Of a DNA stretch of 49,321 nt, positions 497 to 49,321 are shown one piece after another. The stretch lies in IMG/VR virus record IMGVR_UViG_3300049433_000029, positions 1 to 49,321 of that record. The stretch is one strand, 5' to 3'. The position numbers were made by a program, and so were the translations under genes. The notes beneath the pieces were generated by a model. That model was not told where the DNA came from, did no database searches, and was given only the letters and a program-made list of their open reading frames with translations. Within the stretch, counting starts at the first letter, position 1. The number at the start of each line of letters is the position of its first letter. Source of the DNA: a virus.

Positions 497-880
497 TTAC
501 GTTTTCGGTTTGGCCGCATCCATCGCCGCCCGGCTGACGAGCTGGCCCATTTCGCTGGCCTGCTCGGCCAGCGAGCGCATCTGGTTCTGCACGTATTCGC
601 TGTGCAGCCGCATCACCTCGGCCAGATCCTTGGCGTGGAGCAACTGCTGGGCGTAATCCAGCGAGGCCGTCACGTTCTTTTCGGCGTAGGCAATCGCCTT
701 GGTGCTGATGTCCTTGGCGCCGGCGCGGACGGTGGCGCCTTGGCCCTCGATCTTGGAAGCGGTCTGCTGCGCGCTGGCGAGAAAACCCTCGAACGCCTTG
801 CGGGCCTGATCGAAGCTGGTCTCAGCCATCGATCGCATTTCCTTTGGAATTTCGAAACGGTCACGCACATCTTCACTCAT
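497..880 (-). CDS. Phasin family protein
   Basis: 127 residues, ATG at 880 after an AGGAGAG ribosome site. The protein is almost entirely helical, without a signal peptide or membrane segment, and carries the phasin pattern: an F-x-x-F-L-A-S-A-Q core followed by a heptad-rich helix (LRLHSEYVQNQ-like phasin_2 region, residues about 85-105). Phasins bind the surface of polyhydroxyalkanoate granules and control their number and size. It forms a tandem pair with the phasin at the left edge. It is the last host gene before the prophage. The histidine kinase now beyond attR would have been its divergent neighbour before integration. Confidence 0.85.
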   Translation of the reverse strand: MSEDVRDRFEIPKEMRSMAETSFDQARKAFEGFLASAQQTASKIEGQGATVRAGAKDISTKAIAYAEKNVTASLDYAQQLLHAKDLAEVMRLHSEYVQNQMRSLAEQASEMGQLVSRAAMDAAKPKT

Positions 881-1160
881 GGTCCCACTCTCCTGTTTGC
901 GTTCGCGGGGCGTTGCGAATCGGCCCCGGTTCCCCGTTCGCCCACTTCAAGCTACCGGCCAAATAATATCGCAAGTGTGACGCGGTGCGATGTGTTTTCA
1001 GGCCGGGTTCCGCATCGTGAACCTCTGATTTTGTTTTGCAACACCCCAACGCCAAAGCGGGCGCGAGGTTCGCCGCAGGGCGAGCGAATTAAGGTTATTT
1101 GCGGCTTTGCTCGGCGCAGCGCCAGTCGGACCGTGGACCTGACGGAGCGTGGGGGCGATA

Positions 1161-1175
1161 CTAACGACCTGTTAA
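1161..1175. repeat. attL core
   Basis: CTAACGACCTGTTAA, identical to 47001-47015. The bases on either side differ, so the shared core is exactly 15 bp. It does not lie in a tRNA gene. Restoring the empty site joins 881-1160 to 47016 onward, which puts the core in the divergent gap between a phasin gene and a histidine kinase gene. The host part of the gap, 881-1160, holds no gene I can support. The core reads CTAA-N7-TTAA, one base off the CtrA box. Confidence 0.9.
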
Positions 1176-1194
1176 AATCATCCCCTTGATTTCA

Positions 1195-1223
1195 TTGGTC
1201 GACGGTCCCGGGCGGGTTATGAT
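1195..1223 (+). promoter_or_regulatory. Candidate sigma-70 promoter just inside attL
   Basis: TTGGTC (1195-1200), a 17-bp spacer and TATGAT (1218-1223), 27 bp before the start of the 1251 gene. The spacing is ideal and the -10 hexamer matches 5 of 6 bases; the -35 is weaker. The spacer contains ACGGTCCC, the reverse complement of the GGGACCGT repeats near attR, so an integrase or excisionase arm site may overlap this promoter. Confidence 0.4.
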
Positions 1224-1250: not shown

Positions 1251-1508
1251 ATGGCGAAGGCGGTGACGGACTTGCGGTCGGCTATCGACTACATCCGCGA
1301 GCTTCAGGCGGGATCATCTCCGAGCGGCGGGCGGCTTTCCGCTATCGCGGTGCCAAAGGCGGTGCGCGACAAGATAGTCGATGAGTTGGGGGAAGAAAGC
1401 ATGATTCCGGTTACGCGCAAGATGCTGCAAATGTACGACGATCAAGCGCCAACGGAAGTCAGGGTGCTAGGTGTCCTCATCAAAGAGCAGAAACCGAACG
1501 CCACATGA
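1251..1508 (+). CDS. Hypothetical protein at the extreme left end of the prophage
   Basis: 85 residues, ATG at 1251 after a GGGAGAAG ribosome site. It has no membrane segment, signal peptide or motif I recognise; it looks like a small soluble alpha/beta protein. It stands alone on the + strand just inside attL, pointing against the late lysis genes, with its own candidate promoter. Genes in this position are often expressed in the lysogen and alter the host (lysogenic conversion), but the function here is unknown. Its 3' end overlaps the oppositely directed 1480-1623 gene by 29 bp. Confidence 0.7.
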   Translation: MAKAVTDLRSAIDYIRELQAGSSPSGGRLSAIAVPKAVRDKIVDELGEESMIPVTRKMLQMYDDQAPTEVRVLGVLIKEQKPNAT

Positions 1509-27854: not shown

Positions 27855-28358
27855 TTACCCACGGTCCCCACCATCGTCAGGACCGCGGTTCAACGTTATC
27901 AACGGCTTACCATCATTTGGGCTTAACGGGGCATTAACACCGCCCTGCACAATGACGATCTGCAGCCCTGGAAGGGCCTGAGAACCGCGGCTGACCTGCG
28001 CTTCATCATCGATCTGCTCAAGCCTCGCGACGGCTTGGACGCGCGCCATTTGGTTCGTGGTCTGATCGCGCACTTCGACCAATGTGTGAATGTTTCGAGC
28101 ACGTTCGCTGGTACGCAACACGTCCAACTGCGCCATGTAGTACGCTTTGACGGGAGGCTTACGCAGCGCCTTGTAAAGCCCGTGCTCGCTGATGCCTGCC
28201 TTTTGAGCCGCATCTGCGCGCTGGGAGCCGGACCACACCATGAGGTCGATTGCGACACGGACCTTGCCGGTTACACGCTCGATTTTGTCCGCTTTCGGAG
28301 CGATGGCCGGCGGCTGCGACCTGCTATCCGTCTGCACTGGTACGATTGCGGATGGCAT
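27855..28358 (-). CDS. Terminase small subunit-like protein
   Basis: 167 residues. Residues about 30-75 contain a helix-turn-helix (AIDLMVWSGSQRADAAQKAGISEHGLYKALRKPPVKAYY), typical of small terminases that bind the packaging site. The rest is helical with a Gly/Pro-rich end. It is the first gene of the late operon. Late motif copy 7 ends 107 nt before the start, and an AAGGG site precedes the ATG. Confidence 0.8.
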   Translation of the reverse strand: MPSAIVPVQTDSRSQPPAIAPKADKIERVTGKVRVAIDLMVWSGSQRADAAQKAGISEHGLYKALRKPPVKAYYMAQLDVLRTSERARNIHTLVEVRDQTTNQMARVQAVARLEQIDDEAQVSRGSQALPGLQIVIVQGGVNAPLSPNDGKPLITLNRGPDDGGDRG

Positions 28359-44826: not shown

Positions 44827-45219
44827 ATGACAGTAGTAGTCCAAGACTTAATCGAGACGAAGGCGCCCGTTCGGATTCAGCGCAAACGGTCGTGTGGCTG
44901 GAAGATGCCGCCGAACACGGTGAGCGTCACGCGGCCGGGCAAGTGGGGCAATCCACTAAGGGTTGGCCAGTGGAAAGGCTACACCGCTGCGGATGCCGTT
45001 CGCGACTACCGGAAATGGATTGAGCGGGAACCGACCGTTCGGTCATTCGAGAATGTGTACGGCAAGCCGCCGTCTTGCGAGGAAATACGCGAACATTTGG
45101 CAGGCAAAAATCTAGCATGCTTCTGCGCGGCAGACCAGCCGTGCCACGCCGACGTGTTGCTAAAAGTAGCGAACGCGCCTGATACCCGCGCCCGCGCAAG
45201 CATCAAGGGGGAGGGATGA
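44827..45219 (+). CDS. DUF4326 family protein
   Basis: 130 residues. Family blocks are clear: RIQRKRSCGWKMPPNTVSV, RPGKWGNPL, and the C-terminal GKNLACFCAADQPCHADVLL with paired cysteines and a His. DUF4326 proteins occur in phages and bacteria with no settled function; the Cys/His end suggests metal binding. The upstream region lacks a good ribosome site. Coupled to the next gene (ATGA). Confidence 0.85.
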   Translation: MTVVVQDLIETKAPVRIQRKRSCGWKMPPNTVSVTRPGKWGNPLRVGQWKGYTAADAVRDYRKWIEREPTVRSFENVYGKPPSCEEIREHLAGKNLACFCAADQPCHADVLLKVANAPDTRARASIKGEG

Positions 45220-45404: not shown

Positions 45405-45681
45405 GGCGCCGCTCACGATCGACAGGCTGCCGCTGTTCGCCGGCGACGAGCAGATCGGCGAAGCTTTGTTCGGGAAAGAGCGGGCAAAGGAGTTTTCGGC
45501 CCTTGCTTCGGCGCGGGAACGTGATGGAATGCCGCCGGTCAGCAGCTATTGGGGCGGGCGCTTTGTGCCAGCGGTTGTCGAGTATCTAAAGCACGACCAG
45601 GGACTCGGCGTCACCAAGCCGCTCAAGGAAAACGGAGTGGAGGGGGTATGGCCGAGCAACGTCCGCAAAGCCCGGGCCTGA
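45397..45681 (+). CDS. Excisionase-like DNA-binding protein
   Basis: 94 residues; ATG at 45397 preferred over a GTG two codons earlier. Pattern LPLFAGDEQIGEALFGKERAKEF, then GMPPVSSYWGGRFVPAVVEYL fits the small winged-helix proteins that sit directly before integrases in Rhizobiales prophages. It probably directs excision with the integrase by bending DNA at the att arms. Its end overlaps the integrase start by 34 bp. Confidence 0.65.
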   Translation: MSRAPLTIDRLPLFAGDEQIGEALFGKERAKEFSALASARERDGMPPVSSYWGGRFVPAVVEYLKHDQGLGVTKPLKENGVEGVWPSNVRKARA

Positions 45682-46892
45682 AATGGCGCAGGCGCGCGAC
45701 CGGTCCCGATGTGCCGGGCTGGTACGCCAGCGAGGCCGCGATCAAGGCGGGCTATCCGGTCAAATACGCCGATCTGAAACGGCACATCGACCATCCCGTA
45801 CTGCTGATCGAGAGGGCCAGGCGCCTGCAGGCCGAGATGCTGCTATGGATGTCGGGACAACATCAGTCGACCGCGGAATTCGACGGCACGTTCAAATGGC
45901 TGTTGGAGAACTACCAGAAAGACCCGGAGAGCCCGTTCAATACCACGCTCGGCGAATCCGGTGTCAGCCTCTACACCACATACCTGAAAAAGCTCATTCC
46001 CCATATCGGGCCGCGTCGCATAGATCAATGCGATGGCCGCGACGTCATGCGCTGGTTCGCGCAATGGCGGATCGCAAGCGACGGTTCCGCGCGCGATCAG
46101 CTTTCCGTGGCGCGCGTCTGTCTCGCCATCATCAAGGCAGCGGTATCGTTCGGCGTCGTGTGTCGCGCCAAGGGTTGCGCCGAATTCCAGATCATCATGA
46201 AGCAACTGGAATTCGAGACCACGAAGGGCCGGACGCAGGCGCCGACCGCGGATCAGGTTGTTGCGGCGCGAGCCGCCGCCCATGCCGCCGGCGCACCGCT
46301 GCGCGCGCTTGCCTATGCCATCCAGTTCGAAACCACGTTGCGGGCATGGGACGTCATCGGCAAATGGATTCGGATGTCCGATCCAAAGCCCAGCGCCGTC
46401 CTGCACAACGGCAAAAAGTGGGTCGGGCTTACCTGGACCTCGATCGACAACAATCTGATCCTCGCCAAGGTGAAGCCGACCAAAACCGAGGAGACCACGG
46501 AAGTCGAAGTTTCGTTCGATCTCGCGGCCTGCCCGATGGTGGTGGCGGAACTGGCACTGATCCCGCAGGACAGCCGCACCGGACCCCTGATCGTCAATCC
46601 CCGAACCGGGCTGCCCTACATGCGCGAGGCTTGGCGGCAGGGCTGGCGCGCCGACTATAAGGCGGCCGGAATTCCCGTCGACATCTGGAACCGGGACATG
46701 CGCGCCGGCGGAATCACCGAGGGCCAGAGGGCGAAGGTTCCGCGTCCCGACCGCACCCTGCTCGCCGGCCACGCCAGCGAAGCGACCACCAAGGGATACG
46801 AGCGCGACCGCGACAGCAAGGTCGAGGACATGCTCGAGGCCCATCGCCGCGTGATGGGTCCCCGCGTGGCGTCGCGTAAAAAGGATGACTGA
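45648..46892 (+). CDS. int: Tyrosine-type phage integrase
   Basis: 414 residues from the ATG at 45648 (GGAGGGGG site just before); the earlier in-frame ATG at 45549 gives a non-homologous extension. Candidate catalytic residues: Arg232 (TLRAWDV), Arg352 (RDMRAGG), His375 (LAGHAS) and nucleophile Tyr384 (KGYERD). The first His of the usual H-x-x-R box is Arg here. An N-terminal helical core-binding domain precedes it. The gene ends 109 bp before attR, as expected for integration at the flanking 15-bp core. Confidence 0.92.
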   Translation: MAEQRPQSPGLKWRRRATGPDVPGWYASEAAIKAGYPVKYADLKRHIDHPVLLIERARRLQAEMLLWMSGQHQSTAEFDGTFKWLLENYQKDPESPFNTTLGESGVSLYTTYLKKLIPHIGPRRIDQCDGRDVMRWFAQWRIASDGSARDQLSVARVCLAIIKAAVSFGVVCRAKGCAEFQIIMKQLEFETTKGRTQAPTADQVVAARAAAHAAGAPLRALAYAIQFETTLRAWDVIGKWIRMSDPKPSAVLHNGKKWVGLTWTSIDNNLILAKVKPTKTEETTEVEVSFDLAACPMVVAELALIPQDSRTGPLIVNPRTGLPYMREAWRQGWRADYKAAGIPVDIWNRDMRAGGITEGQRAKVPRPDRTLLAGHASEATTKGYERDRDSKVEDMLEAHRRVMGPRVASRKKDD

Positions 46893-46914
46893 GAACGTCC
46901 GGGAAACAGGTCCA

Positions 46915-46943
46915 GGGACCGTGCCGGGACCGTGAGGACCGTG
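46915..46943 (+). repeat. Three GGGACCGTG iterons between int and attR
   Basis: GGGACCGTG at 46915-46923 and 46926-46934, then GGACCGTG at 46936-46943, about one helical turn apart. GGGACCGT also occurs reversed at 1202-1209, inside attL. Short repeats beside att cores are the usual arm-type sites of integrase or excisionase. Confidence 0.55.
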
Positions 46944-46946
46944 CGA

Positions 46947-46975
46947 TTGAGAAACGGTAACGTTATCAATAGAAT
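46947..46975 (+). promoter_or_regulatory. Near-consensus promoter pointing out of the prophage
   Basis: TTGAGA (46947-46952), 17-bp spacer, TAGAAT (46970-46975): 5 of 6 matches in both hexamers. The predicted start is near 46982, 68 bp before the kinase ATG, with attR in the leader. The spacer holds the palindrome TAACGTTA. No phage gene lies downstream, so the host kinase is the only target. Confidence 0.65.
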
Positions 46976-47000
46976 ATTCAGATGCCGGGAGCCGAGACGC

Positions 47001-47015
47001 CTAACGACCTGTTAA
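47001..47015. repeat. attR core
   Basis: CTAACGACCTGTTAA, identical to attL, 34 bp before the kinase start codon. The direct orientation and the integrase next door confirm site-specific integration. Confidence 0.9.
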
Positions 47016-47049
47016 GGCTGTCATCCTTTGGCCGTTGAGTTCTGGCGGC

Positions 47050-49321
47050 ATGCGAAAGGCCCAACCAATCGATCATGCAGTACCGATGAACAATGCCGAA
47101 TTCCAGTTGCGGGATGGTGGCGATCCGAGGTTGGCGGCGCATGCCGCCAGCCATTGGCCGGCATGGCTGTGGTCGACAGACGGCAGCAAAATTCTCTGGG
47201 CCAATCCGGTCGGCGCCAGCCTGTTCGGCGCGGCGAAGACTTTTGGGCCGGCCGACCTGCATCGCCGCCAGGTGACGCAGCTCGCGGGCCGGCTGCTGCC
47301 GACCGGTGCGACGCGTCTCGAACGCCTGCGCGGCTTTGGTGCGGCACTCGGCACGCTGACGACCTGCGCCTGCGCGCGGCTGGATTTCTCCGACGGCGGC
47401 ACCGGCATTCTGGTGATCGCGATGCTGTCGCCGGGAGAATTGCAGCGGATCGGTACCCCGCAACGGACGGTGGGCCAGTTAGAGCGCCTGTCTGTGGAAC
47501 AGGAGGTTCGGGGTTCTCATCCGGTCGCGCCGGAGCAACCGACCGAGGCCGTGGAGGCGACCGGCCATCTGGTGGTCGAGCCATTGCCCGAATCGCCTGA
47601 TCATGCGGAGATCGCGCCGACGCATCAGCCGGATGCCGCGGCGATGGACTTCAAGACGCCTGACTATGAGGAGGCTGCGACCACCGGCGAGGCGCCGGCT
47701 GAATTTGCCTTGATCGATGAGATCATCGAGCCGGCGCCGGACGCGGCCACGGAACATGTTGTTGCCGGCGAGATCGCGTCACCCGTTGACGTTCGCGACG
47801 ACGAACCGTCGCCCTACATCGAAGCCGTCGCCGATGAACCACCGCAAGCAGCGGAGGCCGAACCGTCCGTACGCGAGACATCGCCCGTGGTTGAAACCCC
47901 GCGAGCCGACCAACCGCCGCCGCTGCAGACCATCGAGCCTCGACCCGCCGCGGGCGTTGGCGCGCCGCCATGGCTGGACCAGCCGCCGCCGCACACACGG
48001 CGGCATCCGCTGCGCTTCATGTGGCAGATGGACGCCGAAGGCCGCTTCTCGCTCGGCTCGGACGAATTCACCCGGCTGATCGGTGCGCGCACCGCTTCAG
48101 GCTTCGGCCGGCTCTGGAGCGAGATCGCCGACGTTTTTGGCCTCGATCCCGAAGGCCGCGTGCTCAAAGCCGTCGCCACCCGCGATACCTGGAGCGGCAT
48201 CGCGCTGGACTGGCCGGTCGACGGCGGCGAGCGGCTGCGGGTGGAATTGTCGGGACTGCCGATGTTCGATCGCGCGCGCAATTTCGCCGGCTACCGCGGC
48301 TTCGGCGTCTGCCGCGATCTCAATGGCCTGGCGCGGCTCGACGCGCTGCGCCGCTACGAATTTTTCAGCGACCCGCCGGCGCCGCAGCTTCTGTCCGCCG
48401 AGGTCGCGCCGGCACATCCCGCTGCAGCTGCGCCAGCCGCTGCGCCCGATACTTCGCCCACTCCTGAATTGTCAGTACCGATTGCCGTTGAGACTTCACA
48501 CCAAACCGATTTGGAACATGCCGTGGATAATCAATTGGAAACCCCCAAAAACGTCCTGCCGTTTCGGCCGATGAACGAGCCGAAATCGCCGTCGCTGACG
48601 CCGGTTGAGAACAGCGCCTTCAACGAGCTCGCGCGGCAGTTGTCGGCGCGGCTCGAGAACGAGACCGCAGCACACTCGGAAACATCGGTGCCCTCCGATC
48701 CCGAGGCCGTTGTCGAACAGCCTTCCGCGCCGGACGCATCGGAGCCTATGGGCGACCGCCCCGACTGGCTGTCGCAACCCGAGCCGCCGCCGCGCGGCGA
48801 GACCGCGCGCGACAAGACGCTGCTCGATCTGGTTCCCACCGGCGTGCTGATCTACCGGCTGGACCGGCTGCTCTATGCCAACCCCGCCTTTCTTAGCTGC
48901 GTCGGCTATCACAGCCTGCACGCGCTGGAAGAGGCCGGCGGCCTCGACGCGGTTCTGGTCGAGCCCGGCGTCTCCAACGCCAGCAGCACATCCGACACCG
49001 GTACCCCCGTCACCATTTCGGCAACGCAGTCGTTGCCCGGACACGCGCCGCCCTCGGCGACCGACGCGCATCTGCACGCGATTTCATGGGACGGCGAATC
49101 CGCGCACGCGCTGATCTGCGCCGCGCCGCGCGCCGAGCCCGCTGTCGCTGCTGTCGCCGGTGTTCCCGCTGTTGAGCCCCCGCGCTCGCAGGTCGGCCAC
49201 GCCAGCGCCGAAGAACTCGGGGCCATCCTCGACACCACCGCCGAAGGCATCGTGATGTTCGACGCCGAGGGCGCGCTCAATTCATGCAACCGCAGCGCCG
49301 AGGCGCTGTTCGGCTATGACG
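47050..49321 (+). CDS. Multi-PAS sensor histidine kinase (N-terminal part, runs off the window)
   Basis: 757 residues visible from an ATG at 47050 (47086 also possible); open at the right edge. A PAS-like segment near 35-120 (WLWSTDGSKILWANPVGASLFG), a long acidic Pro/Glu linker (about 140-310), PAS-like segments near 322-440, 591-660 and from 725 (TTAEGIVMFDAEG). The kinase core is beyond the window. This layout is typical of large Rhizobiales cytoplasmic kinases of the PdhS/PleC/DivJ group, which act on DivK in the CtrA cell-cycle pathway; membership is inferred, not shown. The prophage now replaces the native upstream region. Confidence 0.8.
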   Translation, partial: MRKAQPIDHAVPMNNAEFQLRDGGDPRLAAHAASHWPAWLWSTDGSKILWANPVGASLFGAAKTFGPADLHRRQVTQLAGRLLPTGATRLERLRGFGAALGTLTTCACARLDFSDGGTGILVIAMLSPGELQRIGTPQRTVGQLERLSVEQEVRGSHPVAPEQPTEAVEATGHLVVEPLPESPDHAEIAPTHQPDAAAMDFKTPDYEEAATTGEAPAEFALIDEIIEPAPDAATEHVVAGEIASPVDVRDDEPSPYIEAVADEPPQAAEAEPSVRETSPVVETPRADQPPPLQTIEPRPAAGVGAPPWLDQPPPHTRRHPLRFMWQMDAEGRFSLGSDEFTRLIGARTASGFGRLWSEIADVFGLDPEGRVLKAVATRDTWSGIALDWPVDGGERLRVELSGLPMFDRARNFAGYRGFGVCRDLNGLARLDALRRYEFFSDPPAPQLLSAEVAPAHPAAAAPAAAPDTSPTPELSVPIAVETSHQTDLEHAVDNQLETPKNVLPFRPMNEPKSPSLTPVENSAFNELARQLSARLENETAAHSETSVPSDPEAVVEQPSAPDASEPMGDRPDWLSQPEPPPRGETARDKTLLDLVPTGVLIYRLDRLLYANPAFLSCVGYHSLHALEEAGGLDAVLVEPGVSNASSTSDTGTPVTISATQSLPGHAPPSATDAHLHAISWDGESAHALICAAPRAEPAVAAVAGVPAVEPPRSQVGHASAEELGAILDTTAEGIVMFDAEGALNSCNRSAEALFGYD

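Follow-up and report, generated by a model that had tools for sequence, protein, structure and literature searches.

Phage integrases are usually classed by their targets, which are tRNA genes, protein-coding genes or dif sites, and the core of a lambda-type tyrosine integrase site needs a dyad with a 7-bp spacer. An instructive case for the locus described here is prophage HK022, which sits at torS/torT in E. coli and for which a phage promoter and its effect have been proven experimentally (Carey et al. 2019, PMC6814406). That an outward-facing prophage end can replace the promoter of a sensor kinase is already known (PMC6814406). In the Alphaproteobacteria, phages carry CtrA sites for which a role in controlling phage genes has been proposed (Mascolo et al. 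2022, PMC9437464; Jorvik, PMC10589892), the CtrA consensus being given as TTAA-N7-TTAA (PMC9437464), and Jorvik relies on XerCD to integrate at dif-like sites (PMC10589892). On the host side, the pdhS1 promoter of Agrobacterium was picked for study for its predicted CtrA site (PMC7003649).

Here we analysed a 49,321-nt stretch of viral DNA (the window) in which a prophage adjoins a host sensor histidine kinase gene. As in HK022, the outward-reading integrase is the last phage gene, a sensor histidine kinase has attB in its promoter region, the native promoter is cut off and phage sequence faces the kinase. The two differ in that the window is known from sequence alone, its target is a PdhS-like kinase and its attB is a CtrA-type box. 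Like the phages of Mascolo et al. and Jorvik, the window carries the host CtrA motif in phage DNA, but in those phages the sites have a proposed regulatory role, whereas the box in the window forms the attachment core. We consider it probable that the locus combines a lambda-type attP (46893-47015) of a clade that uses CtrA-type boxes with a stranded native promoter, leaving the kinase either silent or dependent on transcription from within the prophage.

The features on which the analysis draws are as follows.

497-880, minus strand: host phasin gene (Pfam Phasin_2), the divergent neighbour of the kinase before integration
1134-1162, plus strand: candidate native kinase promoter (TGGACC 1134-1139, N17, GATACT 1157-1162), stranded at attL and reading into the prophage; conserved in the empty sites of relatives
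1161-1175, plus strand: attL core CTAACGACCTGTTAA, a CtrA-type box and an exact 15-bp repeat of the attR core
1176-1210, plus strand: putative P arm of attP left in attL, with TTGATTTCATTGG (1186-1198) and an inverted arm site GGTCC (1204-1208); similar layout in relative L172 (by eye)
1251-1508, plus strand: leftmost prophage open reading frame, 85 aa, with the captured host promoter on its 5' side
45648-46892, plus strand: tyrosine integrase, last phage gene, reading outward; AF2 model with pLDDT 86, best PDB match full-length lambda integrase
46914-46943, plus strand: three arm-type repeats, GGACC at 46916, 46927 and 46936; comparable repeats directly after int in relatives
46947-46975, plus strand: sigma70-like site TTGAGA-N17-TAGAAT facing the kinase, 10/12 match; not conserved in relatives
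46964-46976, plus strand: IHF-like site TATCAATAGAATA, one mismatch to the IHF consensus WATCAANNNNTTR, 24 nt before the core
47001-47015, plus strand: attR core CTAACGACCTGTTAA, a CtrA-type box rebuilt upstream of the kinase, matching 8/10 of the Agrobacterium CtrA consensus
47086-49321, plus strand: host PAS sensor histidine kinase, PdhS/DivJ-like, running off the window; the ATG at 47086 is common to homologues

The integrase and its attachment site

The integrase by itself gave no match in Pfam or PHROG. Five of seven relatives match Pfam Phage_integrase, the catalytic residues are conserved, and the protein combines a tyrosine recombinase fold with these residues. The structural model suggests a lambda-Int-like enzyme: the predicted fold has arm-binding and catalytic domains, the adjoining DNA has arm repeats and IHF-like sites, and the core has a 7-bp spacer between its half-sites, as in the lambda system. 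Unlike lambda, the window has a CtrA-type box as its core and arm repeats of GGACC type, and the fold match shows very low sequence identity to lambda integrase (14-16%). A single-sequence search of viral contigs detected no integrase relatives; an alignment-based search did find some. Wider searches then yielded 104 full-length integrase rows with downstream DNA, among which a quick maximum-likelihood tree placed the window within a 28-row clade (support 100).

The 15-bp core is duplicated at the two prophage ends, and none of 100 shuffles gave two matches. Host homology starts again at 47016 (GGCTGTCAT) with sequence conserved in empty sites, and when the two flanks of the window are put together at the core, they agree with the consensus of 74 such sites. 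The preliminary description had put attR at about 47052, with a cut 34 bp before the start codon. That position is ruled out, as the core ends at 47015; the cut instead falls 71-85 bp before the conserved kinase ATG.

Arm-type repeats, an IHF-like site and the core all lie directly beside int, and we interpret 46893-47000 as the probable P' arm of a lambda-like attP, which with the core would span 46893-47015. An IHF-like motif, presumed from its sequence to bind IHF, recurs at two distances in ten clade members in all: 13 nt before the core in L085, L172, L134, L175, L176, L170 and L186, and 23-24 nt before it in the window, L086 and L117. These two placements are one helical turn apart. On the opposite arm, TTGAT-N3-ATTGG and the inverted GGTCC site are common to the window and L172 (read by eye), the latter of which looks like an uncut attP.

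Elsewhere in the phage genome, the sole exact CtrA-type box of the window is TTAACGGGGCATTAA at 27923-27937. Seven copies of CCGCAACGCACC occur, all on the plus strand (3766, 8793, 9222, 20285, 23399, 25396 and 28466), several of them just upstream of leftward phage genes; this is perhaps a phage-wide regulatory motif. A DUF4326 protein is encoded near the right prophage end (44827-45219; Pfam E 4e-21).

CtrA-type boxes across the integrase clade

The window core is a close variant of TTAA-N7-TTAA, with one mismatch in eight and CTAA as the first half-site at the kinase, and it agrees with 8 of the 10 positions in the consensus used for Agrobacterium (rule from PMC7003649). The exact box stands at the same place in the nearest integrase relatives, L085, L086 and L117. 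Across the clade, reduced from 28 rows to 27 non-redundant members that are related and whose counts are thus not independent, a box with at most one mismatch lies within 130 nt of the int stop in 21 of 27, where shuffles average 2.0 and never exceed 6 over 200 runs; an exact box is present in 12 of 27, where shuffles give 0.15. The corresponding figures for the sister rows, many of which have a tRNA gene there, are 7/66 and 2/66. Exact boxes are rare in the genomes (26-56 per genome), and TTAA-N7-TTAA is not consistently commoner genome-wide than a reversed control.

Second copies of the core were recovered for several elements: 15/15 positions in the window, 15/15 at 6.3 kb for L133, 14/15 at 8.9 kb for L131, 14/15 at 16 kb for L085 and 14/15 at 56 kb for L134. 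None was present in the stretches read for L086, L132 and L137. Six clade rows have no box in the expected place, and the genes neighbouring L117, L170 and L181 are without a shown CtrA link. In clade members L087 and L088, the DNA after the integrase has neither arm repeats nor box, and the attachment site must be elsewhere.

The boxes are native to the uninterrupted targets. They are found at 74/80 empty kinase loci, at all 28 empty sites read for a DUF2336 gene, at 28/30 for a penicillin-binding protein 1A-like (PBP1A-like) gene and at 26/30 for a PilZ gene. At the last three targets a -10-like TAGG motif lies 3' of the box in many rows (by eye), so the gene side would keep a rebuilt box and a -10 after integration, which resembles the target rebuilding by tRNA-targeting elements. 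The tRNA-targeting integrases among the sister rows (e.g. L141-L147) are related to the window clade, have similar arm repeats and likewise carry a piece of the target in attP; they differ in targeting a tRNA gene, while the window clade targets a regulatory box in a promoter. Taken together, these data suggest that a clade of alphaproteobacterial integrases uses CtrA-type boxes as attachment sites, with CtrA itself expected to bind them on the strength of the motif alone. The preliminary description had missed this main point. Speaking against it are the CTAA half-site at the kinase, the genome-wide frequency of TTAA-N7-TTAA relative to its reversed control, the six clade rows lacking a box, and the members for which a second core copy or a CtrA link of the neighbouring gene did not emerge.

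Several elements of only 6-16 kb, possibly satellites or islands, also have integrases of this clade and attachment sites of the box type, namely L292 (G325:C1 1251848-1258182), L280 (G364:C2 129496-138361) and L115/L120 (G067:C24 45555-61578), and the system is therefore not limited to full-size phages. In L131, L132 and L133, AATTGTTTTCC precedes the box on the element side of attR. It matches GTTTTCC, which is conserved 5' of the box at DUF2336 promoters without an insertion, and attP may thus imitate the host promoter beyond the box itself. At the DUF2336 promoter of L278 (G139:C78) the upstream DNA is unlike that of any empty site. Ahead of the box it has GGGCTATTAATC in common with the occupied L086/L275 site, and it may represent another insertion or a remnant.

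The host kinase and its candidate native promoter

A full-length homologue of the kinase (L010) has PAS, HisKA and HATPase_c domains. Its best NCBIfam match is PdhS (NF041593) at 569.7 bits, far below the curated cut-off of 2000, followed by DivJ. The earlier assignment to a kinase of cell-cycle type is a fair one in view of these two matches; with the PdhS cut-off missed, we call the protein PdhS-like only and do not claim PdhS itself. A start at the ATG at 47050 is unlikely, as homologues align from 47086.

Upstream DNA was compared across 80 kinase loci, nearly all from Bradyrhizobium. A conserved block, ccGTGGACCtg followed after about 17 bp by GCGATAcTAAC-N6-TTAAGGCTGTCAT, precedes the kinase in 74 of the 80, and in 58 of 75 rows TGGACC and GATA are separated by 17 bp. 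The strongest candidate for a native kinase promoter is TGGACC-N17-GATACT. Because the box (CTAAC-N6-TTAA) overlaps its -10 and expected start, the arrangement would suit repression by CtrA.

In the window, TGGACC and GATACT remain at attL, and the same register at attR reads ATATTC and ACGCCT. Judged by this conservation, integration has cut the kinase off from its native promoter, in agreement with the earlier proposal that the kinase is separated from its own upstream DNA. The alternative that a native promoter lies downstream of attR found no counterpart, there being no conserved promoter between the core block and the kinase ATG in the kinase loci of relatives.

At the other end, the reading frame at 1251-1508 is preceded by a ribosome-site-like GGAGAAG and is possibly a phage gene driven by the captured host promoter, which carries the regenerated CtrA-type box. 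No relatives of this frame were found.

The sigma70-like site downstream of the integrase

The sigma70-like site consists of TTGAGA (46947-46952), 17 bp and TAGAAT (46970-46975) on the plus strand, between the end of int (46892) and the attachment core. Its presence there, directed at the kinase with no phage gene downstream, is as first described. At 10/12 it is the only match of at least 10/12 on both strands of the whole 49-kb window, and dinucleotide shuffles of the 108-nt arm (46893-47000) reached this score in 0.18% of cases (p 0.0018). Terminator-like sites between int and the kinase were not detected, nor did the stretch from the putative start to the kinase show a structured leader (z 0.34). 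What had gone without mention is that the site lies within the P' arm of attP and that its -10 overlaps the IHF-like sequence at 46964-46976; its bases are also explained as an attP arm segment with an IHF-like site. Promoter function is plausible, and kinase transcription could equally come from read-through of int.

The reading that a dedicated phage promoter evolved here for transcribing the host kinase in the lysogenic state, on the pattern of HK022 and torS, falls just short of an even chance in our estimation. The uniqueness of the match and its rarity in shuffles of its own arm speak for such a promoter, as do its outward direction, the lack of a terminator-like site, the loss of the native promoter and the experimental HK022 precedent, in which an outward int is likewise the last gene before a sensor kinase (PMC6814406). 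Against it, no related attP arm in the clade exceeds 8/12, and a conserved outward promoter therefore does not appear to be a family feature; the IHF-like site that the -10 overlaps recurs in relatives; and no second prophage at the same kinase, sought as a check on promoter conservation, was found among integrase neighbours or viral contigs. A promoter specific to this phage is nonetheless reasonable, at about one chance in two, because the kinase target loses its native promoter while other targets keep theirs. We give somewhat less than even weight to the reading that the match is an inactive by-product of the A+T-rich IHF and arm segment, with the kinase either silent or read through from int. 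The conserved distance of the IHF-like site, the arm repeats, the lack of a conserved sigma70 site in the clade and the lack of a terminator-like site after int all fit this account; against it, the match is unique in the window and better than shuffles of its own arm give (0.18% of cases).

A further alternative concerns the core itself. If the integrases recognised any A+T-rich dyad with a 7-bp spacer, likeness to the CtrA box would be incidental. Such a dyad is what a tyrosine integrase core requires in any case, the CtrA assignment is made from the motif, and the box is not over-represented genome-wide relative to the reversed control. However, the box is conserved in promoter position at four unrelated phage-free targets, unlike a random dyad, and we judge this explanation distinctly improbable.

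Discussion

We favour a mechanism in which a lambda-type integrase exploits CtrA-type boxes. Boxes in host promoters, with half-sites 7 bp apart, would supply the dyad at conserved places in alphaproteobacterial promoters, where TTAA-N7-TTAA and near variants would serve as attB. Since attP carries the box as well, integration would regenerate the operator at both prophage ends. At most identified targets the gene would thereby retain a rebuilt box plus the downstream -10. The PdhS-like kinase would fare differently: its native -35 and -10 lie upstream of and overlapping the box, and integration therefore strands them at attL, pointing at the leftmost phage reading frame. With that promoter lost, kinase transcription in the lysogen would come from inside the prophage, most likely starting at 46947-46975 or by read-through from int, or else the gene would be silent.

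A more far-reaching version of this model is that the integrases evolved to use the CtrA operator as attB, such that occupancy by CtrA makes integration and excision depend on the stage of the cell cycle, the target receives a rebuilt box (or, as here, a phage promoter) and the left-end phage gene comes under a captured host promoter with its box. This we regard as speculative and rather unlikely.

In the literature searched, which included few subscription papers, we found no integrase clade described as attaching at CtrA-type boxes; the novelty of such sites is likely but not certain. If true, the targeting of a cell-cycle master regulator's operator by an integrase clade would define a new class of attachment site, one that occurs at several promoters in each genome and is conserved between species. 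Targeting of CtrA boxes predicts where prophages insert and would tie lysogeny to the host cell-cycle circuit, with some targets keeping CtrA-type control while the kinase of the window loses its native promoter. The locus also joins HK022 as a second candidate for that mechanism of promoter replacement, in another bacterial class and at a kinase of cell-cycle type.
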